Part shown: one piece after another, positions 1,129 through 46,408 of the stretch
Layout of the letters: every line of letters starts with the position of its first letter
How positions within the stretch are numbered: position 1 is the stretch's first letter
Source: Stieleria magnilauensis
Lineage (GTDB): Bacteria > Planctomycetota > Planctomycetia > Pirellulales > Pirellulaceae
DNA length: 64,000 bases
Direction of reading: 5' to 3'
Assembly (NCBI GenBank): GCA_007753675.1
Contig: CP036432.1
Span: 6,422,394-6,486,393 of the forward strand
Made by a program: the position numbers and the translations under genes
The notes under the pieces: model-generated
Database searches by the model: none
Told to the model about the DNA's origin: nothing
Seen by the model: the letters and a program-made list of their open reading frames with translations, nothing else

Positions 1129-1145
1129 CGGTCAGTGATTGGTCG
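1129..1145. promoter_or_regulatory. Putative enhancer (UAS) palindrome, variant
   Basis: CGGTCA-GTGAT-TGGTCG matches the palindrome CGACCA-N5-TGGTCG at 10 of 12 fixed positions. It ends exactly 74 bp before the -24 element at 1219, the same spacing as at 30571 and 33355. It is inferred to be the binding site of a sigma-54 activator. Confidence 0.55.
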
Positions 1146-1218
1146 CAGTGGCCATGGATTGGCCAGGTGAAATGAAACATGGCTTAGTTTACGCTCGACT
1201 CTGTGCGTTTGCGGGATT

Positions 1219-1234
1219 TGGCACGAAGTGTGCT
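1219..1234 (+). promoter_or_regulatory. Putative sigma-54 promoter (-24/-12)
   Basis: TGGCACG-AAGT-GTGCT matches the sigma-54 consensus TGGCACG-N4-TTGCW perfectly at -24 and at four of five positions at -12. The predicted start of transcription is about 48 bp before the ATG at 1294. Confidence 0.65.
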
Positions 1235-1293
1235 TATTTGCGTCGCATCGAATCTTCTTTGCAAACCCTATTGAAGCTCCGGAGTACGAACCG

Positions 1294-1524
1294 ATGCTAG
1301 TCATTAAATCTCCATTCGTGTTGCCTACCGACCGCCCTCGCCTGGATTTGGAAGACACTGATCCAAACCGCCAGGATCAGTGTCAAGACAGCCGAATCGA
1401 CATCCTGCGGCTGGAGATTTCATCGCAGTGGGACGAATGCGAAAAGCAAGCAAGGCACGTCGAAGCAAAGCGGCGATTGGCTCAACTGGGGACGCTGCTG
1501 TTTGATCGTAGCGAAGCGTGCTGA
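1294..1524 (+). CDS. Small charged protein of unknown function
   Basis: This gene encodes 76 residues from ATG 1294. I prefer this start to an upstream GTG at 1228 because the GTG falls inside the sigma-54 promoter-like sequence. The product is hydrophilic, rich in Asp, Arg and Gln, probably helical after residue 35, and has no signal peptide or membrane segment. The next gene begins one base after its stop, so the two are likely co-translated. I do not recognise the family; the evidence for it being real is the promoter/UAS pair and the tight coupling. Confidence 0.5.
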   Translation: MLVIKSPFVLPTDRPRLDLEDTDPNRQDQCQDSRIDILRLEISSQWDECEKQARHVEAKRRLAQLGTLLFDRSEAC

Positions 1525-1525
1525 G

Positions 1526-1843
1526 ATGGAAATGACCACTAGACCCGAGCGACCGACGCCAAGGTTAGGTTCAGACGCTCGATCGGAACGGTTGCCGTCG
1601 GCAAAACAAACGAAGGAGAAGCAAAAATGTGCTACACCGCAGATTGTGATGGACGCGAATGAACTCGTTCTTAATCATTCTCACTTGCGCGGCTTCGCCA
1701 GCGGATTGGTCATTTGCCTTGTCGACGACTCACTCGTGATCACGGGGACTTTGCCATCGTTCTACCTGAAGCAATCAGTGCAAGAGGCCCTTCGTGAACT
1801 CGGAAAAAAGATCATCAATCGCGTGAATGTCCTACCGCGGTAA
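1526..1843 (+). CDS. BON-domain-like small protein
   Basis: The product has 105 residues. The first 45 are polar and disordered-looking; residues 50-105 resemble a BON fold, with the central hydrophobic strand GLVICLVDDSLVITGTLPSF followed by a helix (LKQSVQEALREL) and a final strand (IINRVNVL). BON domains bind membranes or hydrophobic ligands and are frequent in small stress proteins. No signal peptide is evident. The start at 1526 overlaps an alternative TTG at 1502 that would run into the preceding gene. It probably shares the promoter at 1219. Confidence 0.6.
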   Translation: MEMTTRPERPTPRLGSDARSERLPSAKQTKEKQKCATPQIVMDANELVLNHSHLRGFASGLVICLVDDSLVITGTLPSFYLKQSVQEALRELGKKIINRVNVLPR

Positions 1844-1909
1844 AGAATGACAATGGAATTCCCAGCGTGGACACAATCGCCTGGGCACGGATTCAACCTG
1901 AAATCGGAG

Positions 1910-3358
1910 CTACGTTACCGATGCTGATTTTTCGAGCGACATGCCAAGCGATTCCAGCCGCGCACGCAAGGTCGTCCGTGTGATTCCGAGTCGCTTCGCC
2001 GCTTGCGTGAGATTCCCATCGGTTTGCTTCAGCACTTCTGCAAATATCTCTTTTTCCGCAAGATTGATTAGCTCGCGATGAATGTTCTCACTGCCCTCGG
2101 CGAGCAATTCGCGAGTCAGCGAGGCAAAGTCAATCCCGCCGGGCGCAGGCGTCGCTGGAGCCGCCACGACTTTGGACGGGGCACCTTCGCGAACCGTTTC
2201 TGGCAGAAACGTTGGCACGATGATGGGGCCAGATGCTTCGAGCAACGCGTGCTTCACCGCGCTCTGCAATTCGCGAACGTTGCCTGGCCAGCGATAGGTG
2301 TTCAGAAGCGTGATTGCTTCGGCGGCGAACCCGGTGATTTCTTTGTTAAGTTCCCTGGCGAATCGCTTGAGGAAATAGTTCGCCAGTAGTTCGATATCGT
2401 CACCACGTTCGCGCAACGGCGGTAGTTTGATCATGTATACGTTCAGACGATAATACAGGTCGCTGCGAAAATCCTTGTCCGCAATTGCTTGTTCGAGTTT
2501 ACGGTTGGTCGCCGCGATTAAGCGTGCATTAGTACTGATTGTTTCGGTTCCCCCGACGCGCTCGAATGTTTGGTCTTGCAACACACGCAGTACTTTGGTT
2601 TGCATCAGCGGTGTCATGTCGCCAATCTCGTCCAAAAACAACGTGCCGTCGTTACACAGTTCAAACTTGCCAACTTTCTTTCTTTCGGCGCCGGTGAACG
2701 AACCTTTTTCGTGGCCGAATAACTCACTTTCAAGCAGGTTCTCTGGAATCGCAGCGCAGTTGATCGCTAGAAAGCGTTCAGCTGAACGCTGGCTGTACTG
2801 AAAAATCGCACGGGCAATGACTTCTTTACCAGTGCCACTTTCGCCCAGGATCAATGCGGTCACGTTCTGTCGAGCAACGCGACCGATCGCCCGATAGACT
2901 TCCTGCATGGCCGGGCAGTTGCCAATCAACAAATCAGATTCGCCCTCGGTGGGAACTTCATCAAGACTTTTGTCGGGAACGACGGCCCGGACTCGCGTCA
3001 TGCGGCTGGTTTCCGCAGCGTCCTCGATCAGCGGAATCAGTGTATCGGGATCGAGCGGCTTGAGGATGTACTCAAACGCACCTCGCTGCATCGCTTCGAT
3101 GGCGGTGCCTGCCGTGCCACGTCCCGTCATCAGGATGATGGGAACTTTGGCGTCGATGCGATGCAGTTTCTCAAACGCCTCCATGCCCGACATATCGGGC
3201 AACCGGATGTCGCACAACACAACGTCGGGAGTGCAGTCTAAGAAAACGTCAATACCTTGCTGCGCACTCGCACATGTGACCACTTCATCATTAGGAAACG
3301 TCATTTCGATCGTTTCGAGTATGAGCGGCTCATCGTCGATAACAAGTAATCGTGTCAT
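1910..3358 (-). CDS. Sigma-54-dependent response regulator (NtrC family)
   Basis: The 482-residue protein has three standard parts. A receiver domain (1-120) carries the acidic pocket D8/D9, the phosphorylatable D50 in CDIRLPD and a conserved KP. An AAA+ sigma-54 interaction domain (about 145-370) has Walker A GESGTGKE, the L1 loop GSFTGA, Walker B LFLDEIGD and the arginine-rich YYRLNV segment. A Fis-type helix-turn-helix (NLTQAAKRLGITRTTLRARL) closes the C-terminus. Such proteins bind upstream palindromes and open sigma-54 promoters by ATP hydrolysis. GSFTGA instead of GAFTGA is a tolerated family variant. No histidine kinase gene is adjacent, so it is an orphan here. It is the best candidate to bind the CGACCA-N5-TGGTCG sites in this window. 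Confidence 0.95.
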   Translation of the reverse strand: MTRLLVIDDEPLILETIEMTFPNDEVVTCASAQQGIDVFLDCTPDVVLCDIRLPDMSGMEAFEKLHRIDAKVPIILMTGRGTAGTAIEAMQRGAFEYILKPLDPDTLIPLIEDAAETSRMTRVRAVVPDKSLDEVPTEGESDLLIGNCPAMQEVYRAIGRVARQNVTALILGESGTGKEVIARAIFQYSQRSAERFLAINCAAIPENLLESELFGHEKGSFTGAERKKVGKFELCNDGTLFLDEIGDMTPLMQTKVLRVLQDQTFERVGGTETISTNARLIAATNRKLEQAIADKDFRSDLYYRLNVYMIKLPPLRERGDDIELLANYFLKRFARELNKEITGFAAEAITLLNTYRWPGNVRELQSAVKHALLEASGPIIVPTFLPETVREGAPSKVVAAPATPAPGGIDFASLTRELLAEGSENIHRELINLAEKEIFAEVLKQTDGNLTQAAKRLGITRTTLRARLESLGMSLEKSASVT

Positions 3359-3773: not shown

Positions 3774-5849
3774 TTAAGCATGGACGGGTTCGAGCCATTG
3801 CTTAAACGCGGCGGAGTCGAGCGACTCTTTGACCAACAATTCGCGAGCGATGGCTTCAAGGTGGGCGCGGTGCTCGGTGATAATATGCTTGGCTTCTTCA
3901 TAGGCATCAGCAAGTAACTGCTTGACTTCCTGGTCGATTGTTTGCTCGGTCTGGTCGCTGCAATCGGTATGCAAGCCTCCTGCACCAGACTGCAGGTACA
4001 TCGGTTGACGGCTGGCACAGTGCAATAATCCGATTTGGTCACTCATGCCGTACATGCACACCATTTGCCGAGCCATCGCGGTCGCTCGTTCCAAATCGTT
4101 TTCGGCACCAGTACTGATCTCGCCGTACACAATCTCTTCCGCCGCTCGGCCACCGAGCAACCCTCTCAGGCGTTCGATCAATTCCGTTCGCGTCATCAGG
4201 AACTTTTCTTCGGTCGGTAATTGCAGCGTGTAGCCCAGTGCCGCCCGACCGCGAGGCACGATACTGATTTTGTGAACGGGGTCGGCGTGCTCACTGAACG
4301 TACCGACCAAGGCATGACCTACTTCGTGGTATGCGACACGCTCTCGTTCGTGCTCGTTCAGACGACGACTCTTGCGTTCAGGACCAGCGACCACTTTCTC
4401 TACGGCTTCTTCAAGGTCGTGTTGCGTGATCGTTTTCGACTTCCGACGCGCGGCCATCAGCGCCGCTTCGTTCAATGCGTTGGCAAGATCCGCACCGGAG
4501 AATCCCGGTGTGGCTTGAGCGATTCGGGTCAAGTCGACCTCTTCTTCAAGTGGTTTATTGCGGGCGTGGACTTTTAGAATCGCGACTCGTCCGTCGATGT
4601 CCGGCGAATCGACGATCACTTGGCGATCGAAACGACCGGGACGCAGCAGAGCTTTGTCGAGCACTTCGGGCCGGTTGGTTGCCGCCAATAAAATCACACC
4701 GACGTTAGCTTCAAAACCATCCATTTCAACCAACAATTGGTTAAGCGTTTGTTCCCGTTCATCGTTGACTGCTCCGACATGCACGCCTCGTTCACGACCG
4801 ATCGCATCAAGTTCGTCGATAAACACGATGCACGGCGCAGTGGCTTCGGCTTGTTTGAACAGGTCACGCACGCGCGAAGCACCCACACCGACAAACATTT
4901 CGACAAAGTCGCTGCCTGAGAGCGAAAAGAACGGCACCTTGGCTTCACCGGCAACTGCGCGAGCCATCAACGTCTTGCCGGTTCCGGGAGGTCCAACCAG
5001 TAGAACACCTTTCGGGATTTTGGCCCCCAGTGACGCGTATTGCTCGGGATGTTTTAGGAAATCGACAACTTCTTCGAGTTCATATTTGGCTTCGTCACAT
5101 CCGGCGACGTCATCAAACGAGACTCCTGTGGATTCTTCGCCAGCCAGTTTCGCTCGGCTTTTACCGATGCTCATCATGGCCGAACCGGCGGAGGCCAAAC
5201 GGCGGGACAGAAATGTCCAGATCAAGAATACGATTGCAAACGGGATGAACCAGGACGTCAGCAAGCTGTAGAGAAAACTCGGCCGGATTCCTTCAAATTT
5301 AACGTTTGCCGCTTCGAGGTCTGCGATCAATTGTGGGTCGTCGACACGGACGGTACGAAAAATGAACTCGCTTGGCTTCGGTGCCGCTGCAGCCTTGACG
5401 GTGGCGGGTTCGGCGGAGATTGCAAGCTTGGGCGTTTGTTTCGCGTCGGGGGTCGATTCGGGTTTGGTTTCCGGAGCGGTTTCGGATTTGGTCGCCGGAA
5501 CAGTCCCCACTGGCTGCTCGGCTAGTTTTTTGTCATTGGCAACGCTGGCTTGGTTGTCAGTTGCTTTGTCGACGGTGGGTTGAGTTTCCTTCTTGCCGGA
5601 CAACCGTATCAAACCCACGATCGCATCGTCCTGGACATCGCACTCAACGACCTGCTTGTTTTTGACGTAATCCTTGAAGTCGCTGTAAGGGATCGTCCGA
5701 ACTGTCCCGCGAGCACCAAAGTCTTGCCACAGCCACAGCATCAATAACATCATCCCGGCGTACCAAATAAGGGCTTGCCAATTGATTTGCGGTGTTGGCC
5801 CGAGCGGTGAGTCATTGCCCGGTGGCGTCGGTTCGGTCGGCTGAGGCAT
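3774..5849 (-). CDS. ftsH: ATP-dependent zinc metalloprotease FtsH
   Basis: From ATG 5849 the protein has 691 residues. A start at 5927 is possible; starts further upstream would overlap the preceding gene. Order: first transmembrane segment ([15 protein letters not shown]), a periplasmic domain with an unusually long Ala/Pro/Lys/Thr-rich low-complexity insertion, a second transmembrane segment ([14 protein letters not shown]), the AAA+ module with Walker A GPPGTGKT and Walker [13 protein letters not shown] region [17 protein letters not shown], and the M41 peptidase with zinc site HEVGH. FtsH degrades misfolded membrane proteins and some regulators. It follows the secreted helical protein gene by about 140 bp on the same strand and probably shares its sigma-54-type promoter at 6724. 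Confidence 0.95.
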
Positions 5850-5988
5850 AGTGTCGTGTGAAATAAGTGAAGCGTACGGAGGCGATTCCTGAAAGGCCTT
5901 AGCAGCCGGGAGCAAAATTTCCGACATTGCAGGATGTATCCGAGGCGGATGCCAGACGGATTTTGTCGTACCGCTAAGCGCGGGGTGG

Positions 5989-6675
5989 CTATCTTTTTGA
6001 TGCCAAGTAGTTTCCGAGCTTCTTGGTTTCTTCACCGACGAACGTCAATGCCTTGCTGACGTCCTCGACAGCGTACCCGGCGCCTGCTTTCAGCTTTGGC
6101 TCTAAATCTTTGGCGGCTTGCAACGTGACTTTTGCTCCGGCTTCCCACTCGCGGCCAGCCCACTTTGCTGCGCTTTCGACATCGCAGACGGCGCGGTTTA
6201 AGTACGATCCAGCGCCTGGCGCGTCGCCAGCCTTGATTGCCGTGCCAGCTTTTGCGTGATACTCGACGGCCATTGCCTGATTGGCTCGGGCAAAAGAATC
6301 GGCCATTTCACGGCGGCCGATCGTTGCTCCGTTCCTGACCCTGACTGCCAATGCGGTCAGCTCGGCGGCGGATTTTTTCAGCGCCGCTTCGGCGGCGGGC
6401 GTTGCATTGACCGCAGCAGTCTTTACATACGCCGCAGCCTTTTCAATGTCCGCAGCGGCTTCATCGGCCTTCTTGCCAAGGAATGTTTCGTGAGCCGCCG
6501 TCATCAATCGCTGTGGTTCGGACATCAACTTTGTCCAGTCATCTTCGTGGACTGTGATCGATTTGGCCGGCACCGCCGCATTTGACACAGCTGTTTTTTC
6601 GACTGGCGGTTGATCGGCAAAAGCGCTGGGACTCAAGAGCATGAGACTCAGAACTGCTGTCGGAAGCGATTTCAT
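5989..6675 (-). CDS. Secreted Ala-rich helical stress protein (paralogue A)
   Basis: The product has 228 residues with a clear signal peptide (MKSLPTAVLSLMLLSPSAFA). The mature part is almost entirely helical and rich in Ala, Lys and Glu. It shares the layout of the proteins at 31394-32131 and 33540-34232: an aromatic-rich opening (DDWTKLMSEP), then a block of the form EAAADIEKAAAYVKTA, then ELTALAVRVRNG, then a final Lys/Leu helix. The fold may be of the YfdX type, but that is a guess. It lies upstream of ftsH and behind a near-perfect sigma-54 promoter. A periplasmic chaperone-like or structural stress role is inferred only. Confidence 0.8.
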   Translation of the reverse strand: MKSLPTAVLSLMLLSPSAFADQPPVEKTAVSNAAVPAKSITVHEDDWTKLMSEPQRLMTAAHETFLGKKADEAAADIEKAAAYVKTAAVNATPAAEAALKKSAAELTALAVRVRNGATIGRREMADSFARANQAMAVEYHAKAGTAIKAGDAPGAGSYLNRAVCDVESAAKWAGREWEAGAKVTLQAAKDLEPKLKAGAGYAVEDVSKALTFVGEETKKLGNYLASKR

Positions 6676-6723: not shown

Positions 6724-6739
6724 AGCACTCGGCGTGCCA
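6724..6739 (-). promoter_or_regulatory. Putative sigma-54 promoter for paralogue A and ftsH
   Basis: On the minus strand the sequence is TGGCACG-CCGA-GTGCT: perfect at -24, four of five at -12. The -12 lies about 49 bp before the start codon at 6675. The trx promoter at 41580-41595 is identical at 14 of 16 positions. Confidence 0.7.
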
Positions 6740-6791: not shown

Positions 6792-6808
6792 CGACCAGCG
6801 TCTGGTCG
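6792..6808. promoter_or_regulatory. Enhancer-like palindrome CGACCA-N5-TGGTCG (perfect)
   Basis: CGACCAG-CGT-CTGGTCG is a perfect 7+3+7 inverted repeat. It lies between the divergent genes for paralogue A and the H+-ATPase, 53 bp from the -24 of the leftward promoter and 125 bp from the candidate rightward one, so it could serve both. Confidence 0.65.
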
Positions 6809-6932
6809 CAGCGATCAAATTCTGTTCGTTCTCTAAATCACTCGGCGAGCGATTTCCTGGTTGGCCGAAGTCATTGCTCGAAGTCGACGGTGCGGGTGAG
6901 TTCCACCGACAAAAAATGGACAATTGCAAATT

Positions 6933-9713: not shown

Positions 9714-10112
9714 ATGAACAAAACGAATCATCAATTTGGCCTGCGCCTACGCCAAGATCGTGAAAGAGCCGGGATGACGGTACGTCAATTGGCCGAAGCG
9801 GCTTCCATCAACTACTCCTACATCACCAAGATCGAAAAGAGCACCGGCAAATCGGGCGTTTCTGATGTTGTGGTGCGAGCGTTGGCGGCAGCTTTGGATG
9901 CCGACGAATACGAGTACCTGTACCTAAGCCAATTGGTTCCCGAGTCGATCGAGCCAATCTTCGCGACCGACGAATCTCGAGAGTTCTTACACGAAGTCAC
10001 CTCGCGGAAGTTGAACGCGGACGATTGGCAAGCCCTACAGCGTTGCTTGGAGTCACGGGCGAGTTACGACAACACTCGCCGGACCAAGACGAAGCCCAGC
10101 AGCGTCGCTTAA
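9714..10112 (+). CDS. XRE-family helix-turn-helix regulator
   Basis: The protein has 132 residues. Residues 8-65 form a Cro/C1-type helix-turn-helix (LRQDRERAGMTVRQLAEAA, then INYSYITKIE); the C-terminal half is acidic then basic. Its stop is 27 bp before the methylase gene on the same strand, so it is likely the controller of the methylase-nuclease operon, as C proteins are in restriction-modification systems. That role is an inference from position. Confidence 0.85.
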   Translation: MNKTNHQFGLRLRQDRERAGMTVRQLAEAASINYSYITKIEKSTGKSGVSDVVVRALAAALDADEYEYLYLSQLVPESIEPIFATDESREFLHEVTSRKLNADDWQALQRCLESRASYDNTRRTKTKPSSVA

Positions 10113-10139
10113 AACGGCAGTCACACGAAAACAAACATT

Positions 10140-13100
10140 GTGCGGGCAACCGTGTCCACTGAATCCAGCACTCCCGAATACCGAAACCTCATCGAAGCGT
10201 TGGGCCTTGCGCCCAGCAACGACGGTGGCGGCGTGCTCAGCGGAGACTCGCTTCGTGACGCCAGGACAAGTTTCAGGTCGAGCCACTTGCTCGACAAGCA
10301 TTTTCGCTACGCATCCGTTCTCGATACAGACAACCTGGGCGTGACGGACGTTTTTGAAGTCAACGGAACGCCCTGCATCTACTTCAAGAGTTTGTCTGCG
10401 GAGCCGACGGCGGAGCAGATTCATCACTGGCATCGGACGGCCTGGAATCATGGTTTGGGGCGAATGCTCTGGATCGTCACGCCGAAATCGCTCCGCGTAC
10501 TCAATGCGTTTCATCCACCGCCGGAGGAAACAACGAGTCTTCCCAAGCGACATCCGGCGGAACTGTTGCAAGAGGCCACCGACGACCTAGAACAAATCCG
10601 CAAGTACGAACTGGACCGCATTGGCTTGGAAAGCGGCCAGTTTTGGACGACGAAAGCGGGCCGGAAGATCAACAAGGCGACCCGGATCGACGAAAAGTTG
10701 GCTGCTGATCTTGGCAAGGCTGCCCAGCTTTTGACGGTTGCCGGTTGTGATCCGCTAGCGGCACACCGTTTGATGCTGCGCACGATGTTCACGGCCTATC
10801 TGGAGGCTCGCGGTGTTCTGCCAAATGAGCTGTTCGCTGACTTGAAGAGTGAGTCGTTCAAGGAAGTACTGACCAGCGTCAAAGAAACACAAGCGTTCTT
10901 TGAGGGAATGCGAACGACTTTCAACGGCGATCTCTTCCCGCCGCCACCGACCAAGGGTTCGCCCAACGAGTCCTATCGTTATGCAAAGCCGCAATTGGAG
11001 ATCGCCCGTTCGATCGTCATCCGACGCGACCTGACAAGCGGCCAGTTGTCGCTCGACTTCTGGCGTTACGATTTCGAGATCATTCCGATTGAATTGATAA
11101 GTTCGATCTATGAGCGTTTCATCTACGCGGGCGATCCGAAACTGGCGAAGGAGCGCGGCACCCACTACACGCCTGTCAATCTAGTGGACCTCGTGTTTTC
11201 GCAGGTGTTCGATGATGGATTGTTTTCCGAGCCGCTGAGCGACAAGCCAAAAGTACTGGATTTGGCGTGTGGGTCAGGTGTCTTTCTTGTCGATGCGTTC
11301 CGTCGTTTGGTTGCTCGCCGCGTGGCGGAGGGAAAGGAGAAGCTAAGCCGAACATTGGTTCGCGATGTCTTGGCCAAACAGCTCTTTGGCGTTGACCTGG
11401 AGGAAACGGCGATTGAGATTGCCGCGTTCAGCCTTTGTTTGACCGCGTTTGAACTGGACCCGTCGCCCGACTCGATCAAACAATTGAAATTCAAAGATAG
11501 CCTGAAGGAGCGAAACCTATTCGTCGGTGATGCTTTTCAATCGGACGGGTTCGCGGAACGGCCCGAGTTCAAGAACAAGCAGTTTTCGATCGTCGTTGGC
11601 AACCCACCTTGGAAGAAGACACGCGGTTCCAAAACCAGTGCGGAAACAAGTGCCAAGTCGCACATTGCGTTTTGTGATTCCCTTGATCCTCCTGTCCAAC
11701 TGGGATTCCGATCACCAATCGACCAAGCGTTCATTTGGCGAAGCCAGCACTTTTGCGATCCCGGTGGGCGAATCGGATTGATCGTCGATGCAAAGAACTT
11801 CTTCAGCCCGCAACCACAGTCGCAACTCGCCAAACAAGATTTGTTCGGACGAATGCGACCGAGGGTGCTGTTGAATTTGTCGTCGCATCACAACAAAGAA
11901 TTGTTCCCTTCGGCCGAACAGCCAGCCATGATTTTCGTTGCGGAAAACACCAAGCCAACGGTGCATGACGAGGTAACGATCGCGTCCACCGAACGAAGTG
12001 AACGGTTTCGCAAGCACGGGATTGTTGAGCTGTTCTTTGACCGCGTGAATTCACTTTCGTTCGCGAACGTTCGCCAGCACGAATACTTGCTGAAACTCGC
12101 GATCAACGGCGGGCCAAGAGACTTCGCGATCTTGAAAGGGCTGTACCGAGAGTTCTCTACGGTTGGTGATGTACTCGACCAATGGGGAACCGCACTGATG
12201 CCGGGCTACAAGGGGAGGGATGCCGGAGCAGACGTCCCGAAAAACATGGTTGGCATGCGTATGCTGGAAGATCACCAGCTAGAACTGCTCTATCAGCCGA
12301 CCGATTCGCTACCGAAATTTGAGTATGAACGGATGCATCGGCCTCGCGATCTTCGATCGTATTTGGCACCACTAGCGATTGTTCCGCAGGGGCTTTCAGG
12401 CAACCGTCTCGCGGCCACCACAGTTGAACAAGACGTGATCTATGCAAGGTCATACTCGGGCATGCCAGTTGGCCATCCTTTCCAGTCGCAGGTTCTCGCA
12501 TGCTTCTTCAATTCATCACTCGCCGCTTATTGCTTTCTGCACACTGCCTCGCGATTCGGAATTGACCGCCAAATCGCCGAGCAGAATGACTTTGCACGAC
12601 TGCCGTTCCGCGACTTTGATACAAAAGACGATGCGGTGATGGAGATGGTCCGCCTAGTTGCACAAGCAAGACGTGACGGTTCGTTTGATGATTTTGCAGC
12701 ACTCGACACTGCAGTTTTTGATTTCTTTTCTTTGGAAAATTGGCAACGGGACTATGTGACCGATGTTGTCAACGTTGACATGGACTTTGTCCGCAACGGA
12801 ACCAATTCAGATGGTTGCAATACCGCCGAAGCGAGTGAACTGGCTTCTTATGCCGATACCGTCTGCTCTACGATCCGCGGCAACATCGGCGATACAAAGT
12901 TAAAAGTAACCGCCGACATCATCGAAGCGTTGGAAGATATCTGCGCGGTCGTCATCCGTTTCGACGAATCCCGTAATCGAAAGGTCCAAACGATCGCGCG
13001 AGCGGACTTTAATTACTCGGGACGACTCGCCGAACTACTGCACTCGCCGTTGACCGCGACGTTCCAACTTCGACGCTCGCTCGTGTACTTTGACGGAGAC

Positions 13101-13199
13101 CGCTGCATCATCGTCAAGCTTTCGCAAAAACGATTCTGGTCGCGGGCTCGCGGATACGATGATGCGGATTCCATCCTCGCAGAATTGGTTCGGCCGTAG
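10140..13199 (+). CDS. Large N6-adenine DNA methyltransferase (type IIG/Eco57I-like)
   Basis: The product has 1019 residues from GTG 10140 (a second GTG lies at 10152). Residues 1-150 form an alpha/beta N-terminal domain. SAM-binding motif I is LDLACGSGVF near residue 373 and the catalytic motif IV is NPPW near 488; that order is typical of gamma-class N6-adenine methylases. The C-terminal third (about 680-850) looks like a TaqI-type target recognition domain (FFNSSLAAYCFLHTASRFGI). The N-terminal segment DVFEVNGTPCIYFKSL could be a degenerate nuclease core, but the acidic residues are not in the usual places, so I do not call it an active endonuclease. It sits between an XRE regulator and a PD-(D/E)XK-like gene. 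Confidence 0.85.
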   Translation: MRATVSTESSTPEYRNLIEALGLAPSNDGGGVLSGDSLRDARTSFRSSHLLDKHFRYASVLDTDNLGVTDVFEVNGTPCIYFKSLSAEPTAEQIHHWHRTAWNHGLGRMLWIVTPKSLRVLNAFHPPPEETTSLPKRHPAELLQEATDDLEQIRKYELDRIGLESGQFWTTKAGRKINKATRIDEKLAADLGKAAQLLTVAGCDPLAAHRLMLRTMFTAYLEARGVLPNELFADLKSESFKEVLTSVKETQAFFEGMRTTFNGDLFPPPPTKGSPNESYRYAKPQLEIARSIVIRRDLTSGQLSLDFWRYDFEIIPIELISSIYERFIYAGDPKLAKERGTHYTPVNLVDLVFSQVFDDGLFSEPLSDKPKVLDLACGSGVFLVDAFRRLVARRVAEGKEKLSRTLVRDVLAKQLFGVDLEETAIEIAAFSLCLTAFELDPSPDSIKQLKFKDSLKERNLFVGDAFQSDGFAERPEFKNKQFSIVVGNPPWKKTRGSKTSAETSAKSHIAFCDSLDPPVQLGFRSPIDQAFIWRSQHFCDPGGRIGLIVDAKNFFSPQPQSQLAKQDLFGRMRPRVLLNLSSHHNKELFPSAEQPAMIFVAENTKPTVHDEVTIASTERSERFRKHGIVELFFDRVNSLSFANVRQHEYLLKLAINGGPRDFAILKGLYREFSTVGDVLDQWGTALMPGYKGRDAGADVPKNMVGMRMLEDHQLELLYQPTDSLPKFEYERMHRPRDLRSYLAPLAIVPQGLSGNRLAATTVEQDVIYARSYSGMPVGHPFQSQVLACFFNSSLAAYCFLHTASRFGIDRQIAEQNDFARLPFRDFDTKDDAVMEMVRLVAQARRDGSFDDFAALDTAVFDFFSLENWQRDYVTDVVNVDMDFVRNGTNSDGCNTAEASELASYADTVCSTIRGNIGDTKLKVTADIIEALEDICAVVIRFDESRNRKVQTIARADFNYSGRLAELLHSPLTATFQLRRSLVYFDGDRCIIVKLSQKRFWSRARGYDDADSILAELVRP

Positions 13200-15618: not shown

Positions 15619-15999
15619 CTAGGGAGTGGTCGCAGTCATATCTGTTTGTATCCATTCGCGTGCCTTGGCTACATCAGCGATGTCAAAGTATTGGATCATT
15701 GCGGACGTAAAAGGCTTGCAGAATACTGCCATGCCCTTCTCCCATTTGTTTTCACCGACAATCGCCAGTCGTTCAATGTGTCCGTGGTGCTTGAGATCGA
15801 ATTTGATGTCTTCCCATAACGCCCCGGCGTCCCACCCGTGAAAGTCGTGCAGGACGACTAGCATACGAATCTTGCCGAACTCGGCGATTCTCTCTTCGGT
15901 CATCGGCAAGAAGGCATCGTAAGCCTCTTTGGACAACCTGCCTGAAACCTGCACTTCAATGATTTTGCCTTCGGCGTGTTCGACGATGATGAACGACAT
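15619..15999 (-). CDS. SpoIIAA-like (STAS-related) protein
   Basis: The product has 126 residues. Features are the opening strands IEVQVSGRLSKEAYDAFLP, the central MLVVLHDFHGWDAGALWEDIKFDLKHHG and RLAIVGENKWEKGMAVFCKPF, all typical of the SpoIIAA-like family (PF11964). Members have a STAS-like fold, and some shuttle between cytosol and membrane. It has its own sigma-54-like promoter and UAS at 16106-16180. A two-domain relative lies at 32254-33039. It is not close enough to the sigma-70/PP2C pair to infer an anti-sigma partnership. Confidence 0.9.
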   Translation of the reverse strand: MSFIIVEHAEGKIIEVQVSGRLSKEAYDAFLPMTEERIAEFGKIRMLVVLHDFHGWDAGALWEDIKFDLKHHGHIERLAIVGENKWEKGMAVFCKPFTSAMIQYFDIADVAKAREWIQTDMTATTP

Positions 16000-16105: not shown

Positions 16106-16121
16106 GGCATGCTGCGTGCCA
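16106..16121 (-). promoter_or_regulatory. Putative sigma-54 promoter for the SpoIIAA-like gene
   Basis: The minus strand reads TGGCACG-CAGC-ATGCC: perfect -24, three of five at -12, with the GG-N10-GC core. The start codon at 15999 lies about 95 bp beyond the predicted transcription start. Confidence 0.6.
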
Positions 16122-16163: not shown

Positions 16164-16180
16164 CGACCAGATATTGGCCA
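16164..16180. promoter_or_regulatory. Putative enhancer palindrome, variant
   Basis: CGACCA-GATAT-TGGCCA matches the motif CGACCA-N5-TGGTCG at 10 of 12 positions. It lies 43 bp from the -24 of the SpoIIAA-like promoter. Confidence 0.5.
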
Positions 16181-16246
16181 ATGCGGACAAATGCTGCTCG
16201 GTTCGGCATGTCATTGAACTGCGACTTGTGCAAACTTCGAATCACG

Positions 16247-19187: not shown

Positions 19188-19238
19188 AACATGAATCGGC
19201 CTATCGGCGGGCGTTCTGCGACAGCGGATCCTGGCAAT

Positions 19239-19253
19239 CGAGGCATCATGCCT
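19239..19253. promoter_or_regulatory. Palindrome upstream of the sigma-70 gene
   Basis: GAGGCAT-C-ATGCCTC is a perfect 7+1+7 inverted repeat, 52 bp from the -24 element. It differs from the CGACCA palindrome, so it may be an operator for another regulator. Confidence 0.35.
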
Positions 19254-19353
19254 CACTGGGGCATAATTGTGCTGTCACATAGTTGCTCGCTGGAGGCAAG
19301 GGCGATCCACCCCGATCCGGATGAGTCGCAGGATAATTGAGCAACTCGCCGAA

Positions 19354-29123: not shown

Positions 29124-29125
29124 AC

Positions 29126-30570: not shown

Positions 30571-30587
30571 CGACCAACAATTGATCG
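30571..30587. promoter_or_regulatory. Putative enhancer palindrome (11 of 12)
   Basis: CGACCA-ACAAT-TGATCG matches CGACCA-N5-TGGTCG at 11 of 12 positions and ends 74 bp before the -24 element at 30661. Confidence 0.6.
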
Positions 30588-30660
30588 GCGCGGACAAATC
30601 CTGTTCGACTCGAACGGTTCAGCCGGCAAAGCAACGTAGGTTTTCCCCTTTGAATACGAA

Positions 30661-30676
30661 TGGCACACGGCATGCT
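30661..30676 (+). promoter_or_regulatory. Putative sigma-54 promoter for the HEAT-repeat gene
   Basis: TGGCACA-CGGC-ATGCT matches six of seven positions at -24 and four of five at -12. The start codon at 30777 follows about 100 bp later. The element at 43790 is nearly identical. Confidence 0.65.
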
Positions 30677-30776
30677 TTGAAATGGTCGAGGCCGCGCCGA
30701 AGTTGAATTGCCCTTAGCAATTTCATTTGGAAGCCTGGAAAGTTTGACCACTCCCCCCCCATCACGCAAGATAACC

Positions 30777-31283
30777 ATGACCGAGATTCAATCGACCTTA
30801 GACGAACTCGCATCTAACGACGGCGCCGTCCGCGAACGCGCGCGGAAGGCACTTGTCGCGACCAACGGACACGAAGTTGTTTACGCCCTAATCGGGGAGT
30901 TGGTTGACCCGCGTCACCAAGTGCGTTGGGAAGCAGCGAAGGCGCTTTCGGAGATCGCTGATCCGGTTGCCGCGATCCCACTAGTTCACGCAATGTTTGA
31001 TGAAGACAATGATGTTGCTTGGGTGGCCGCCGAAGGCGTAGCGAGACTGGGCGAACCAGGTCTCTTGGCAGTGCTCAGCGGCCTGACACGCGCTAGCCAT
31101 TCAGTCGAATACTGCAAAGCCGCTCATCACTCGCTCAAAGAGTTCCGCAAGTCGGGCAAACAGCACACCGAAGTGGACGCCGTGATGAAGGCTCTTGAAG
31201 GTGTCGAGCCAAAGCTGTCGGCTCCCGTTGCCGCCTATCAAGCACTGCAACAAATCCGCATCGGCGAAGTTACCATGCCGTAG
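30777..31283 (+). CDS. HEAT-repeat protein
   Basis: The 168-residue product has about four HEAT/PBS-lyase-type repeats: VRERARKALVAT, HQVRWEAAKALSEIADPVAA, NDVAWVAAEGVARLGEPG and a diverged fourth. Such repeats form a protein-binding scaffold. No catalytic domain is present. ATG 30777 is preferred over an upstream start at 30708, which has no conserved residues. The stop codon is the TAG of a REP-1 repeat. It leads the cluster with paralogue B and the two-domain SpoIIAA-like gene. Confidence 0.88.
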   Translation: MTEIQSTLDELASNDGAVRERARKALVATNGHEVVYALIGELVDPRHQVRWEAAKALSEIADPVAAIPLVHAMFDEDNDVAWVAAEGVARLGEPGLLAVLSGLTRASHSVEYCKAAHHSLKEFRKSGKQHTEVDAVMKALEGVEPKLSAPVAAYQALQQIRIGEVTMP

Positions 31284-32187: not shown

Positions 32188-32253
32188 GCAGGAGCCAATT
32201 GATCTTTGTCGTCGCAGTCGTGCCCGTAGCGAATCAAGTTGGTCGCCAAGCCC

Positions 32254-33354: not shown

Positions 33355-33371
33355 CGACCAATGTTTGGTCG
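33355..33371. promoter_or_regulatory. Enhancer palindrome CGACCA-N5-TGGTCG (perfect)
   Basis: CGACCA-ATGTT-TGGTCG is perfect in both half-sites. It ends 74 bp before the -24 element at 33445. Confidence 0.65.
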
Positions 33372-33444
33372 GAGTGATCAAAAGCTTCACGCCGGTAACA
33401 CTTAATCATTGGCACACCTCAACAGATTGCGAGTTTCTGCTCTT

Positions 33445-33460
33445 TGGCGCGATTTCTGCT
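33445..33460 (+). promoter_or_regulatory. Putative sigma-54 promoter for paralogue C
   Basis: TGGCGCG-ATTT-CTGCT matches six of seven at -24 and four of five at -12. It is about 80 bp before the ATG at 33540. Confidence 0.65.
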
Positions 33461-33539
33461 TTGTCATCGACATCGAGTCGCGACTGCGATTGGCATGTCG
33501 CCAACGAGATCGCGATAACTTTTGATGAGGAACACAAAA

Positions 33540-34232
33540 ATGAAAACTCTCTCCATGTTTGCACTTGCCGCACTGATGGTCGCGCCGGCCGTTGTCGGTT
33601 CGGCCGCGGACACGACAACCGGCACCAAGACAAAGGGTTCGAAGCCTGCCGCATCACCTGGTTGGTTGGTGATTGAAGAAGATTTTTGGACACCACTGCG
33701 GTTCGAGCCTGTCGAATCGCTCGATACGATTCGCTACCATTATCGCCGCAACGAAGAGAAAGCGGCGGCGAACGAAATCGACAAAGCCATTAGTTGGTTG
33801 AAGTTGGCTGAAAGTCATGCCATGCCAATCACAAAGGAAAAGCTGACCTATGCAGCCAGCGAACTTACTCAGCTTTCGGCCAAGCTTCGTTCGGGTGAAG
33901 TCGCATCGGCCGCCGCGATGGACAGCGCTTTGGGACGTGCCGCACAAGCACTTGGCGAGTGGCACTTCTACAAGGCCAAGGAGTCTTGGGGGAAAGGCGA
34001 AGAGCAAGATGCCGGACGCAACTTGACGATGGCTGCCAACTATTTGCAGCATGCTGCCGATTCGGCTCATCTGCAATTCGGCCCCGACACCACTTCGGTG
34101 ATCACTGACTACTACCGATACGGCTATTGGACCGGTGACACCGTGAAATTCGATCACAACAAACTCGGCAAGGATTTGCAATCGATCGAAAGGGCGGTCA
34201 GCGATCTCGGGAAAGAGATGAAGAACTATTAG
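33540..34232 (+). CDS. Secreted helical stress protein (paralogue C)
   Basis: The product has 230 residues with a signal peptide (MKTLSMFALAALMVAPAVVG). GAGG at 33527-33530 is a good ribosome-binding site for ATG 33540 and decides against the upstream ATG at 33525. The mature protein starts with an aromatic stretch (EEDFWTPLRFEP) like that of paralogue A (DDWTKLMSEP), followed by the block EIDKAISWLKLAESHAMP shared with B. It is all helical otherwise, with no catalytic motif. It has the best UAS/promoter pair in the window. Confidence 0.85.
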   Translation: MKTLSMFALAALMVAPAVVGSAADTTTGTKTKGSKPAASPGWLVIEEDFWTPLRFEPVESLDTIRYHYRRNEEKAAANEIDKAISWLKLAESHAMPITKEKLTYAASELTQLSAKLRSGEVASAAAMDSALGRAAQALGEWHFYKAKESWGKGEEQDAGRNLTMAANYLQHAADSAHLQFGPDTTSVITDYYRYGYWTGDTVKFDHNKLGKDLQSIERAVSDLGKEMKNY

Positions 34233-34471: not shown

Positions 34472-37400
34472 GTGATTTTACTGCGACTTATTGCGATTCT
34501 AACGTCGCTTTCTTACGTGCATGCCACGTTTGCTCAATCCACCAATAATTCCGCGCCGCCAGAGGCGACTAGCCTCGACGCGATCACTCAGCGTCTTGCA
34601 TCGGCATCCGACCTGACGGACCAGAATAAGACTGACATTGGGCAACTGGTGCAAACGATCCAGTCGCAGATTGCAGCGACGGCGAAAGCCAAGTTAGACG
34701 CGACCGGATTTGCGACGGCAACAAACGGCGCGGCAGACGCGATCAAACAAGCCAAAACGGAGCTCGCCAAACCGATTTCCGAGCCAACGCCGCCGAAAGA
34801 CTCCGCCGCACTGAGTGACCTGCAACAACAACTTACAACGACTCAAGCGGGACTCGCTCAAGCACAGACTGACCTCGCCGCCGCAACGGCGGCTCCCACA
34901 ACCCGACAATCACGTACCATCGCGATTCCCGGTTTGATCGCCGCGGCTCAGTCGCAGTTAGACGCCGTGAAAACAAGCCTGGCGCTGCCAGCATCGACAA
35001 GCGAACCGCCTTTGTTGGTACAGGCTAAACGAATGCAATTAGAAACGCAGCAGCAATTGCTCTTAGCGCAAATCGACGGCTACCAGAAGGAACTGGCGAG
35101 TTACGCAGCGACGACCGACTTGGTTCCATTGCAGCGACAACTTGCCGATCGCCACGTCGCAATGCTGACGGCACAAATGAACCAACTGCAGGCTGGCATT
35201 ACACAACGCCGAGTCGACGAAGCGGCGCGTTGGAGAGCTGCCATTGCCAAGGACCTGCAATCCGCCGACGCCGCGACAAAGTCCGCCGCTCAATCAACAA
35301 AGGCATTGATCGACCAGTACGAACAGGTAAACAATCGAATCGCGTCATCATCGGCCAAGGTCGACGAGCTGAAGTCAAAATTGGATGCCGTCAAGGGTGA
35401 CTATACAACAACAACCCAGCGAGTCGACGCGGTCGGGTTAACCGAAGCACTGGGCTTGCTGCTGCGACAACAGCAAGCTCGCTTGGTGGCAGAGAGACAT
35501 CAATATCTACCCGACGGCCAGGGCAAAGCTCAAATGCAACAATTGCAGCTTGAAATGTTTCAAGATCAAGATCAATTGAATCTGCTGAATCAGTCCAGCA
35601 CCAAGCCGGACAGCGTTTCCACACTTCGGATTGCGATCCTCGACAAACTCGTCCCAGCTCAAACAGCGTTGTTTCAAAATTTGGTCACCGTGGACACCGA
35701 TTCGCGACAACTGATCGAAGCAATTGATAAATACCTCAACTTTATCCAAGGCAACCTTCTCTGGATTCCAAGCACGGGAACATTGTCCAGCGATGAAATT
35801 CCGCAGTCCATCGCGGCAGCACGCTGGCTCTTGACGCCAAGTTCTTGGCGCATCGTTGCGTCGGAACTGTTCAGTGATTGTAGGACCAATCCAGTTCGTT
35901 CGGCGTTTTTCGGCTTCTCAATGGTAGCTGCTTTCGCGACGCATCGCCGCCGTCGCCAGCGATTAGAATCGCATGGCAAGACGGCTGCCCGCCGAAACTG
36001 TCAGTCCATTCGCCCGACATTTGCCGCCTTGACGATCACAATTGTATCGTCGGCAATCTTGCCACTGATCATGCTCGGTATCGGTGCAATGTGCATTGCA
36101 CCGGCCAGCAACGAAGAAGTTTTGCGCGCAATTGGCTATGGATTCTATGCCTGCGGCGTCTTTCTGATTCCATTGGAATTGATGCGGCATGTTGCCGCGC
36201 CGTCAGGGCTTGCCCAATCCCATTTCCGTTGGGCCGACTCAACGCGGGCCGCTCTGTCGTCAAAGCTACGATGGTTCTATCCCGCCACGTTGTTTTTGTT
36301 TATCGCAGTGGTTCTTGAACACCAATCCAATGCCGACTGGCAGAGTTCGCTGGGACGAATCGGGCTGATCGGATTCTGGCTGGTTGTCGCAGTCGCCTTG
36401 CATTGGCTTTTCCGACCGCAGTCAGGACTGATCCCGACCAAAGACGGAGATTCCGAACGTTTCATTTTGTTTCGCTCGCGCCGCATCATCTACGCCGCGA
36501 CATTGCTAATTCCCACCCTGCTGATTGCGCTGTCGGCAGCCGGATATCATTACACCTCCGTTGAGCTCAGCAAACGCGTTTTATGGACGCTGGTGGTGGC
36601 GACAGGATTGTTGATCGCCAGCGAGTTCTTGACTCGTTTGGTACTGGTCCATCGCCGTCGATTGGCAATTCTTGAGTCGATGCGTGAACGTGAACGAAAA
36701 GCCGAGGTCACAACGGGCGAAACACTGATGGACGAAGCAGGGATCAACGCCCAGCAGGAAGAACGATGCGATCTTGTTTCGGTGGGGCGTCAGTCACGCA
36801 AAGTTGTCCATTTGCTGTTTGGGGTTGCCTTCGTATCGGCGGCATTGTGGTTCTGGAAAGACATGTTCCCAGCGTTCGATCTGCTCAACCAAGTCACGCT
36901 GTGGTCGGTCGGTGTGGCCGGAGAGGCCAAGCCGGTCACTCTGGCCGATGTCTTGATTGCGCTGCTTACGGTGACACTGACTCTGGTCTCGATCAAGAAC
37001 ATGCCGGGACTGCTGGAGTTGATTTTGCTGCAACGACTACCGCTCGATTCGGGAGCGCGTTATGCGGTCACCACAATGTTTCGCTACGCACTGTTTGTCG
37101 TCGGCTTGATTGTTGCACTAAGCTTCTTGAGCATCCCTTGGTCGCACTACAGTTGGATTGTGGCGGCCGGAACGGTCGGACTGGGGTTCGGGATGCAGGA
37201 GATCGTGGGCAACTTTGTATCGGGCATCATCATCCTGCTGGAACGTCCCATCCGCGTCGGTGACATGGTGACCGTCGATGGCAACATCGGATTCGTCACC
37301 CGCATCCAAATGCGGGCGACGACGATCACAACTCGCGACCACCAAGAACTGATTGTGCCGAACAAAGATTTCATCACCGGAAAAATCCTCAACTGGTCGC

Positions 37401-37735
37401 TCAGTAACGTGACCAATCGTATATTGATCAATGTTGGCGTGGCCTACGGCAGCGATCCAGACCAGGTCCGTGATTGTTTGCTCAAGACGGTCACAGATCA
37501 CCCCATGGTCATGTCGGTCCCTGAACCGGTCGTGTCGATGGAGAGCTTCGGTGACAGTTCGCTGAACTTTGAAATCTGGTGTTATCTGCCGGATTTGACC
37601 AATCGTCAGGGTCTGCGTCACGAACTGTTGGCGGCAATCACACGTGCTCTCGATGGTATTGGCGTCACGATCCCGTTCCCGCAGCGGGACATTCACATCG
37701 TCCACGATTCGTCGGGTGCAAATCAACTCAAGTAG
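34472..37735 (+). CDS. Large mechanosensitive channel (MscK/KefA-like)
   Basis: The product has 1087 residues from GTG 34472. A signal peptide is followed by a long periplasmic region (to about 440) rich in Gln, Ala and Thr with strong coiled-coil character, then about eight to ten membrane helices, and the MscS channel domain near residues 860-1080. The pore helix and beta domain are visible (VGLGFGMQEIVGNFVSGII, RPIRVGDMVTVDGNIGFV, VPNKDFITGKILNWSL). It would release solutes under hypo-osmotic shock. The stop codon is the TAG of a REP-1 arm. Confidence 0.92.
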   Translation: MILLRLIAILTSLSYVHATFAQSTNNSAPPEATSLDAITQRLASASDLTDQNKTDIGQLVQTIQSQIAATAKAKLDATGFATATNGAADAIKQAKTELAKPISEPTPPKDSAALSDLQQQLTTTQAGLAQAQTDLAAATAAPTTRQSRTIAIPGLIAAAQSQLDAVKTSLALPASTSEPPLLVQAKRMQLETQQQLLLAQIDGYQKELASYAATTDLVPLQRQLADRHVAMLTAQMNQLQAGITQRRVDEAARWRAAIAKDLQSADAATKSAAQSTKALIDQYEQVNNRIASSSAKVDELKSKLDAVKGDYTTTTQRVDAVGLTEALGLLLRQQQARLVAERHQYLPDGQGKAQMQQLQLEMFQDQDQLNLLNQSSTKPDSVSTLRIAILDKLVPAQTALFQNLVTVDTDSRQLIEAIDKYLNFIQGNLLWIPSTGTLSSDEIPQSIAAARWLLTPSSWRIVASELFSDCRTNPVRSAFFGFSMVAAFATHRRRRQRLESHGKTAARRNCQSIRPTFAALTITIVSSAILPLIMLGIGAMCIAPASNEEVLRAIGYGFYACGVFLIPLELMRHVAAPSGLAQSHFRWADSTRAALSSKLRWFYPATLFLFIAVVLEHQSNADWQSSLGRIGLIGFWLVVAVALHWLFRPQSGLIPTKDGDSERFILFRSRRIIYAATLLIPTLLIALSAAGYHYTSVELSKRVLWTLVVATGLLIASEFLTRLVLVHRRRLAILESMRERERKAEVTTGETLMDEAGINAQQEERCDLVSVGRQSRKVVHLLFGVAFVSAALWFWKDMFPAFDLLNQVTLWSVGVAGEAKPVTLADVLIALLTVTLTLVSIKNMPGLLELILLQRLPLDSGARYAVTTMFRYALFVVGLIVALSFLSIPWSHYSWIVAAGTVGLGFGMQEIVGNFVSGIIILLERPIRVGDMVTVDGNIGFVTRIQMRATTITTRDHQELIVPNKDFITGKILNWSLSNVTNRILINVGVAYGSDPDQVRDCLLKTVTDHPMVMSVPEPVVSMESFGDSSLNFEIWCYLPDLTNRQGLRHELLAAITRALDGIGVTIPFPQRDIHIVHDSSGANQLK

Positions 37736-41595: not shown

Positions 41596-41655
41596 AAGAT
41601 GCAAAAGCCACGTTTTGAGGTACAAAACTGACTTTGCAAGACAAGAACGGAGCGT

Positions 41656-41680
41656 CAGAATGTCTCATTGAGACATTCTG
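41656..41680. promoter_or_regulatory. Perfect 12+1+12 palindrome
   Basis: The left arm is CAGAATGTCTCA, then T, then TGAGACATTCTG. It lies 61 bp upstream of the thioredoxin -24 element and 43 bp beyond the stop of the APC permease gene. It is followed by a CCCC...GGGG stem at 41681-41698 without a T-run. It may be an operator/enhancer, or the terminator of the permease gene. Confidence 0.55.
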
Positions 41681-41722
41681 CCCCGATCAGAAATGGGGCT
41701 ACGGGCGAAGCTTTTCGGTGCC

Positions 41723-45386: not shown

Positions 45387-45647
45387 ATGATCATGCGACC
45401 GGAATCTAAGTCTGACGCACTGCCACCCTTAACGACGCAACCCGAGTTGGTGTACAGAACCGTTCACGGGGTGGAGGTCCGATTCAGGCCCTGCCAACGA
45501 CGTTTCCCAGAATCTCAAACGTCGCGTTTGAACGAATCGACCGGGGATACATTCCCTAAGTTCGATCCGGCACATGGGGTCGTGGATGCTGTTGACGAGG
45601 CGAACGCGGAATCATTCCCTGCCAGCGACGCTGCTGCCCGCTGGTGA
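45387..45647 (+). CDS. Small conserved protein with a VDEA...SFPASD motif
   Basis: The product has 86 polar residues. The tail VVDAVDEANAESFPASDAAA matches a motif (VDEASEESFPASDPP) common in short bacterial proteins of unknown function, which supports this as a real gene. The N-terminal 60 residues are Arg/Pro-rich without a recognisable domain. It stands alone downstream of a sigma-54-like element. Confidence 0.65.
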   Translation: MIMRPESKSDALPPLTTQPELVYRTVHGVEVRFRPCQRRFPESQTSRLNESTGDTFPKFDPAHGVVDAVDEANAESFPASDAAARW

Positions 45648-45730
45648 GCAGACAGTCGCCCAATGCCTGCTGCCTTGGGACTATCGAGCTGGTTTTCTTC
45701 GTCGCCGTTCGGTAGCGACGTTAATTACGA

Positions 45731-46125
45731 TTACGAGAGTCCACCTGCGCTCAGATGGGCGCATTGTGCCACGCCCAGCAACGCTGCTCGCCCCGTGAGC
45801 ATGACTCGGACGGGCACGTCGGCCAGCACCGATCGCAGACGCCCCTTTTGCACAAACGAATGAGCGAAGTCGCCCGCTTGCAACGCGGGTAGGATGCGCG
45901 GCGCGATCCCGCCGCCGACAAAGACACCACCGGTTGCCATATACCGAAGCAAGCAAACTCGGCTGACCGATTGTGATCGCGCAAGAACGTCATTGCCAGG
46001 GCGTCCAAGCTCTCAAAATCGTGACTTGGATAGGTCGCTTCGTCGATCACGGCGAGTGTGCCGTCACATACCCCAAAAAAACCGAGATTGGTTTTTGTGC
46101 CTCCAATATCGCCTGCCAATATCAT
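45731..46125 (-). pseudogene. Glucokinase (ROK/Glk) gene with internal deletion
   Basis: The 5' part, from ATG 46125, encodes MILAGDIGGTKTNLGFF and then TYPSHDFESLDALAMTFL, as in glucokinase N-termini. A different frame encodes the C-terminal signature YMATGGVFVGGGIAPRILP, DFAHSFVQKGRL and VPVRVMLTGRAALLGVAQ. About 200 residues, including the catalytic core, are gone. The gene is dead, although a functional glucokinase may exist elsewhere in the genome. Confidence 0.8.
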
Positions 46126-46244
46126 TGTTTGGTTCTCACTATGCTGAGTCGTATTTATCCTTTTCCGGATACTGATTGGACATGGCGTTCCGGACGTCAA
46201 GACAGGCCATACCTATATCGAATGCGACCAGTGTTTAACCGGTG

Positions 46245-46261
46245 CGACCAATCTTTGGTCG
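46245..46261. promoter_or_regulatory. Enhancer palindrome CGACCA-N5-TGGTCG (perfect)
   Basis: CGACCA-ATCTT-TGGTCG is perfect. A second, half-conserved copy (CGACCA-GTGTT-TAACCG) lies 20 bp upstream at 46225-46241, so the site may be tandem. Confidence 0.65.
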
Positions 46262-46314
46262 ATTGAAACACATCCTTTCGTACAGTTGACCGACTTTCTG
46301 TGCAGTGAAAATCC

Positions 46315-46376
46315 GTAGTCGGCATCGTCAGACTTCGGAAAACGTGAAATCGCCAAACTCTGGACGGTTCGGATGC
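46315..46376 (+). repeat. REP-1 repeat inserted between UAS and promoter
   Basis: The left arm GTAGTCGGCATCGTCAGACT and right arm CAAACTCTGGACGGTTCGG are about 62 bp end to end, and degenerate. Confidence 0.6.
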
Positions 46377-46392
46377 GAATCTCAATCCTGAT

Positions 46393-46408
46393 TGGTCCGC
46401 CGTATGCG
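46393..46408 (+). promoter_or_regulatory. Putative sigma-54 promoter for the ferritin-like gene
   Basis: TGGTCCG-CCGT-ATGCG matches five of seven at -24 and three of five at -12, with the GG-N10-GC core. It is 51 bp before the ATG at 46459. Confidence 0.45.

Follow-up and report, generated by a model that had tools for sequence, protein, structure and literature searches.

A candidate sigma-54 stress regulon with tandem enhancers and an NtrC-type regulator in one chromosomal segment of Stieleria magnilauensis

The binding sites of NtrC are paired upstream palindromes with a 5-bp spacer. They resemble the tandem sites described here in a 64,000-nucleotide stretch of the Stieleria magnilauensis chromosome (contig CP036432.1, positions 6,422,394 to 6,486,393; hereafter the window), which also encodes an NtrC-type response regulator at 1910-3358 on the minus strand. 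Unless called chromosome positions, coordinates are those of the window, continued past its right end where needed.

Three described systems come close. In E. coli, the ZraR regulator of the ZraS-ZraR pair is presented in PMC7657598 as a sigma-54, NtrC-type protein that activates the chaperone ZraP and is tied to envelope stress. The lxa locus of Burkholderia cenocepacia (50 genes) and the DosR regulon are given in PMC6127331 as examples of clustered or co-regulated genes for universal stress proteins, a BON domain and electron transfer. As to Planctomycetia, PMC12316311 (2025) reports that MscS channels and UspA proteins are enriched among predicted sigma-54 targets, and states that activator-promoter specificity is not available for all of its organisms.

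The link from activator to site to target is mostly unknown in planctomycetes, and in this genome alone the activator has at least 23 relatives; in the present case, a putative binding site, a spacing rule, a candidate kinase and a list of predicted targets could be spelled out. Judged from sequence, the regulator at 1910-3358, together with a hybrid kinase, very likely controls nine stress and respiration units as one response, by way of tandem enhancers and sigma-54 promoters.

Tandem enhancers and their promoters

A previous, sequence-only reading of the window had proposed that it holds a sigma-54 regulon marked by an enhancer motif of its own, the palindrome CGACCA-N5-TGGTCG. This proposal is supported, and the motif had been placed rightly: it is perfect at 6792, 33355 and 46245, matches 11 of 12 bases at 30571, and 10 of 12 at 1129 and 16164. 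The palindrome is, however, half of a 37-bp tandem made of two 17-bp sites with three bases between them (17-N3-17), 20 bp from centre to centre. Nine tandems were found, six of which start in the window, at 1129, 6792, 16164, 30571, 33355 and 46225, and three past its right end, at 66410, 83120 and 100482.

A candidate -24/-12 promoter (GG-N10-GC) accompanies all nine, and the sigma-54-like sequences named in the sequence-only reading are present where it had put them. On the plus strand, enhancer 1 (1129..1165), the weakest of the nine, precedes the promoter TGGCACGAAGTGTGCT (1219..1234) and two small open reading frames, 1294-1524 and 1502-1843. On the minus strand, enhancer 2 (6792..6828) precedes TGGCACGCCGAGTGCT (6724..6739), and enhancer 3 (16164..16200) precedes TGGCACGCAGCATGCC (16106..16121). 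Back on the plus strand, enhancer 4 (30571..30607) is followed by TGGCACACGGCATGCT (30661..30676), and enhancer 5 (33355..33391), whose second half is degenerate, by TGGCGCGATTTCTGCT (33445..33460). Enhancer 6 (46225..46261, plus strand) has the top model score. It contains the perfect palindrome of 46245, for which a full tandem is now apparent, but its sole promoter candidate is the weak sigma-54-like sequence TGGTCCGCCGTATGCG (46393..46408, plus strand).

In coordinate order, the distances from the near end of the tandem to the promoter are 53, 52, 42, 53, 53, 131, 41, 42 and 64 bp. With the 131 bp of 46393 set aside, the eight distances (41-64 bp) put the promoters on the same side of the helix (for a 10.5-bp turn, R 0.94 and Rayleigh p ~9e-4), and none of 100,000 random distance sets drawn between 35 and 70 bp was as coherent. 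Phasing by shared descent is unlikely, because the enhancer-promoter spacers are hardly alike: their mean identity is 0.30 and their maximum 0.41, versus 0.25 (sd 0.06) for shuffled ones.

The tandems are confined to one segment. A model built from the nine sequences alone recovered them, its own training set, at E<=6.2e-4, and its next best hit elsewhere in the genome had E=0.32; as the best 150 of 3972 first-look candidates were scored, a divergent site could be missed at this sensitivity. All nine lie within chromosome positions 6423522-6522911, that is 99.4 kb of a 10.77-Mb chromosome. When each tandem was left out in turn, eight of nine outscored every other position in 304 kb, and the ninth, that of 1129 (21.2), was exceeded by one background position (21.8). 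The cluster is not an island marked by composition, since no G+C step is seen at its left edge: in 8-kb steps, G+C is 0.535-0.559 in the cluster and 0.534-0.568 in the 100 kb leftward, and it reaches 0.558-0.598 from ~116 kb on, the rise beginning ~16 kb beyond the rightmost enhancer.

Regulator, kinase and competing explanations

The protein encoded at 1910-3358 has the receiver (REC), sigma-54 AAA+ and Fis-type helix-turn-helix domains of an NtrC-type regulator, with PF00072, PF00158 and PF02954 all above cut-off in Pfam. Its translation shows a Walker A motif, an LCDIRLPD receiver stretch and a GSFTGA loop. The latter is a one-residue variant of the GAFTGA contact loop, shared with 3 of 11 orthologues in other genomes, the other eight having GAFTGA. 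The genome has a single rpoN match (PF04552, E 5.5e-62). Orthologues of the regulator (E<=1e-175) are present in 12 of 396 genomes of the order, the present one included, and the other 11 are 63-82% identical; 11 of 13 congeners carry only more distant relatives. The recognition helix reads LGITRTTLR in nine of the 12 regulators and LGISRTTLR in those of G245, G136 and G106, while the same stretch in two paralogues of the present genome reads LGISRPTLR and LGITRGKLR.

The activator had been called an orphan, a description that is not supported. A hybrid kinase with CHASE3, two PAS stretches, HisKA, HATPase and REC is encoded at 67025-69679, ~64 kb away, and in 11 of 11 relatives a kinase-like gene (BLAST match to this kinase, 39-63% identity) lies at most 0.9 kb from the regulator. 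Domains were checked in the present kinase and that of G019, where they are the same. Because its kinase homologue adjoins the regulator in all 11 relatives, the regulator is probably not an orphan, and the pair appears to be split in the present genome.

Control is most likely exerted by 1910-3358, because the sites recur beside its orthologues. Scanning the 191.9 kb within 8 kb of the 11 orthologues with the matrix from the present genome gave 15 peaks scoring >=15, versus ~0.7 expected (background 3.71 per Mb over 807,616 positions), and eight scoring >=20, versus ~0.5 expected. A site >=15 was found in 10 of the 11 genomes, which are not independent cases because they belong to six genera and near relatives share sites. 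Three sites of G296, scoring 24-27 and no more than ~6 kb from the regulator, have promoter candidates at distances of 42, 52, 88 and 137 bp; the gap to a promoter is 53 bp for one site in G245 and 64 bp for one in G106. In the relatives, sites lie upstream of or near genes for HEAT, SpoIIAA-like, RND efflux and SulP transporter proteins, and no promoter was seen near the RND site of G296 or the SulP site of G362.

A second model, which also took in four sites of G007 and G011 and one site found by the first model, predicted two new sites. That of G007 (E 0.0022), at a locus without synteny, is 228 bp upstream of the promoter TGGCACGGGCCTAGCA and of a SpoIIAA-like gene; this family is also a predicted target here, at 15619. 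That of G011 (E 0.016) is at a locus seemingly orthologous to a G007 training site. Two further candidates were rejected, the G019 hit at 4595595, inside an open reading frame of 1078 amino acids, and G007:C60, which has no promoter. A scan of contigs for the regulator protein, mostly in more distant relatives, covered seven of the best 80 of at least 591 loci and gave no convincing site.

Several results weigh against the proposed regulon. G136, whose orthologue is 63% identical, has no site >=15 within 8 kb of the regulator. At E<=0.05, the second model marked five of the 12 genomes that carry an orthologue and one of 17 congeneric controls (G148); it also gave a false hit in coding sequence of G019. 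Applied to 60 relatives with stricter filters at the same threshold, the first model marked the present genome and G007, together with G031, G032 and G047, which have no orthologue at E<=1e-175, and it missed the orthologue-bearing G011 and G019; the hits in G031, G032 and G047 have no promoter scoring >9 within ~210 bp. Tight phasing is not general, because the promoter candidates of G007 and G011 lie 148-228 bp from the sites, where it is not seen; in the relatives, distances <=100 bp also cohere less well (n=9, with R 0.63 at 10.5 bp; one orthologous promoter accounts for three of the nine). In the genus of G019, G316 and G228, the half sites have drifted towards TTTATCCG with the recognition helix still LGITRTTLR. 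As for the promoters, the weights of the sigma-54 matrix were set by hand after the published consensus. Six candidates score >=13, and those at 83199 (10.3), 100402 (9.1) and 46393 (8.5, the weakest of the set) could be chance because their scores are low; 46393 is also out of phase.

Could a different NtrC-type activator of this genome bind the tandems, the product of 1910-3358 being a mere neighbour? Other activators do exist: the scoring of 26 among 145 candidates gave at least 23 that match the regulator at E<=1e-60, and weak model hits occur in the three genomes that lack an orthologue. We nevertheless hold this to be improbable: in 10 of 11 other genomes, sites are again present no more than 8 kb from the orthologue of this very regulator, and 16 of 17 congeneric controls are without a whole-genome hit at E<=0.05. 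Moreover, three 20-kb regions around paralogues in the present genome have no tandem score above 11.9; a palindrome paired with a promoter is absent from two of them, and in the third a 10/12 palindrome stands 191 bp away from a promoter.

Binding of a repressor or of a sigma-70-class regulator, with coincidental -24/-12 matches, is harder still to sustain. It would fit the three low promoter scores, and the window shows no enrichment of the bare sigma-54 consensus (16 found versus 13.9 expected); most of the best-scoring matches lie upstream of genes. However, the pattern YGGC-N8-TGC placed 40-100 bp after CGANCA-N5-TGNTCG, drawn up after the sites had been seen, has eight matches in 10.77 Mb and none in the control, and five of the eight fall within 94 kb, between chromosome positions 6429118 and 6522911. 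In addition, the spacing is phased, and the gene conserved next to the sites encodes a sigma-54 activator rather than a repressor.

The rare and strong signal is the palindrome paired with a promoter, not the palindrome alone. In the window, 20 palindromes with up to two mismatches are found versus 3.95 expected, a number reached in none of 100 shuffles. Twelve fixed bases had been expected once in 17 million positions, an argument that fails: the 10,769,056-base genome has 14 perfect palindromes (one in the reversed control) and 232 copies with at most one mismatch (control 77), so that the 12-base palindrome was rejected as a rare mark. Three of the 14 are in the window, where a uniform spread of the other 11 predicts ~0.07 (hand calculation). 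Each of those 11 is inside a frame free of stops, 594 to at least 3019 nucleotides long and with a possible start upstream; these are frames and not gene calls. The palindrome at 6792 is likewise inside a frame, of 1533 nucleotides, but without a start. One-mismatch palindromes at 33026 and 41161 are inside the SpoIIAA-like and the thioredoxin gene. Equal frequency inside genes, which the sequence-only reading had named as fatal to it, is thus partly found for the palindrome by itself, which is not diagnostic of the regulon, and not for the tandem enhancer with its promoter. That the palindromes are codon-bias or chance repeats devoid of regulatory meaning, as the 11 perfect copies in long stop-free frames and the 232 near-copies might suggest, is the least credible explanation given the tandem arrangement, the phasing, the confinement to one cluster and the recurrence beside the regulator, and the out-of-sample enrichment of tandems argues strongly against it.

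With control by 1910-3358 retained, the switch would operate as follows. The CHASE3-PAS hybrid kinase would phosphorylate the regulator, which would then bind the 37-bp tandem, two imperfect palindromes near CGANCA-N5-TGNTCG, as two adjacent dimers. Bending of the DNA would bring the AAA+ ring to sigma-54 RNA polymerase at the -24/-12 promoter, predicted 41-64 bp downstream on the same helix face in eight of nine cases. In this way, the nine enhancers would together switch on genes for secreted helical, FtsH, SpoIIAA-like and Usp, HEAT, YflT-like, M90, BON (with NDH-2 next) and cytochrome-oxidase proteins.

Target units and neighbouring genes

The targets foreseen by the sequence-only reading stand in part. 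Behind promoter 6724, the first gene of the minus-strand unit (5989..6675) encodes a helical protein, secreted as judged by eye from its N-terminus. FtsH (3774..6035, minus strand; Pfam AAA, Peptidase_M41 and FtsH_ext) is downstream and would belong to the same operon; the regulator gene comes ~415 bp after it. Promoter 16106 precedes a SpoIIAA-like gene (15619..15999, minus strand; PF11964 in Pfam), with a Usp gene (14224-14703) next to it in the same orientation. The HEAT unit, on the plus strand, starts with a HEAT-repeat protein (30708..31283, Pfam; its real start is probably an internal ATG), presumably co-transcribed with genes for a secreted helical protein (31394-32131) and a double SpoIIAA-like protein (32239-33039). 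A HEAT orthologue, 55-62% identical, is found near the kinase-regulator pair in five relatives (G019, G011, G007, G316 and G228). Promoter 33445 precedes another secreted helical protein (33522..34232, plus strand), which may or may not be co-transcribed with the MscS-type channel (34472-37735) that follows. The 7.8-kb segment 30500-38300 was rejected as a shared unit: it is absent as a whole in 13 congeners, where only portions of the MscS or HEAT gene, or short stretches, are matched.

Less surely, owing to the weak promoter, the unit behind 46393 is a putative target. It comprises, on the plus strand, a small protein formerly called ferritin-like (46459-46914), for which no family was found at gathering level, and a YflT-like protein (46954-47526). 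Targets past the window would be an M90 peptidase, a BON-domain protein that has NDH-2 after it, and subunits II and I of cytochrome oxidase.

The helical proteins at 5989, 31394 and 33522 are paralogous, 26-31% alike. They have no Pfam family at gathering level, and the model of 33522-34232, all-helical over residues 53-235 (residues 1-58 of low confidence, mean pLDDT 74.6), has no Foldseek match in the PDB at E<=0.001. A YfdX-like or other known identity was rejected on these grounds. Near enhancer 1, at ~680-1000 on the minus strand, there is a decayed Walker A stretch of a sigma-54 activator, broken by stops, and the apparent end of a secreted helical protein like that of 31394; a strong sigma-54-like promoter at 987 faces these fragments. 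This minus-strand promoter was rejected as a regulon member, since it faces the decayed region with enhancer 1 reversed at 126 bp.

Also rejected were the units behind 19172, 41580, 43790, 34289 and 45306, the first three of which had been counted as firm members. Their sigma-54-like sequences are present, but the tandem enhancer is lacking: within ~260 bp, the best tandem scores are -5.7 to 5.8, versus 33-44 for the members (self-scored). By eye, inverted repeats were noticed upstream of the minus-strand promoters 41580 (AGAATGTCTCA-TGAGACATTCT, 41596-41710) and 19172 (GAGGCATGATGCCTC, 19188-19300); possibly these are sites of other activators. The weak plus-strand promoter at 6933 shares enhancer 2, from which it is 104 bp away, a distance of nearly an integral number of helical turns. 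Enhancer 2 may act in both directions. A proton-efflux P-ATPase gene (TIGR01647, 6890-9589), for which 6933 would be the promoter, is divergent from it.

At 84433-100303, NDH-2 and cytochrome-oxidase genes (Pfam) stand beside the last two enhancers, and the genes between them look bc1-like by eye. This arrangement suggests that the response includes a respiratory branch. The target genes here and in relatives suggest envelope, osmotic or redox stress as its function. Two other loci lie inside the cluster, a helix-turn-helix regulator with an Eco57I/MmeI-type N6 DNA methylase (9714-13199) and a phytochelatin synthase homologue (19354-20022).

A wider view, which we offer tentatively, is that the segment of ~100 kb might be a self-contained stress module. 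It would hold the sensor, the activator, all nine detectable enhancers and the targets, an alternative oxidase operon among them; the rest of the 10.8-Mb chromosome yielded no other copy of the code. Unrelated genes would have been recruited under one helix-phased enhancer grammar. The relatives would retain just a small core of kinase and regulator, often accompanied by a HEAT or efflux gene, and have their other sites elsewhere. The locus would then exemplify a regulon assembled at a single chromosomal location, and it gives putative roles in one response to SpoIIAA-like, HEAT-repeat and helical secreted proteins.

Comparison with described systems

No description of this particular regulon was found in the open-access literature searched. 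The sigma-54 predictions in Planctomycetia differ from the present analysis in that the part of PMC12316311 consulted has no enhancer-target map of this kind. Like the lxa locus and the DosR regulon, the cluster groups stress genes (Usp, BON, electron transfer), but here control would be by sigma-54, whereas none is reported for lxa in the portion of PMC6127331 at hand.

On the features that can be checked in the DNA, the type of switch is a familiar one, an NtrC-type two-component/sigma-54 system. With ZraS-ZraR it has in common an NtrC-type sigma-54 regulator and a putative link to envelope stress. It differs in its putative partner, a hybrid CHASE3-PAS kinase, in its nine predicted target units versus zraP, zraS, zraR and mgtA, and in its helical proteins without a Pfam family. 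The regulator stays below the NCBIfam equivalog cut-offs for ZraR (358.9 versus 760), AtoC (434.9 versus 714) and NtrC (431.8 versus 558.6). With NtrC/NtrB-type systems it shares the REC-AAA+-Fis regulator, the GxFTGA loop, the candidate sigma-54 promoters and a probable kinase partner, but it has another half site, and its predicted targets are stress genes.

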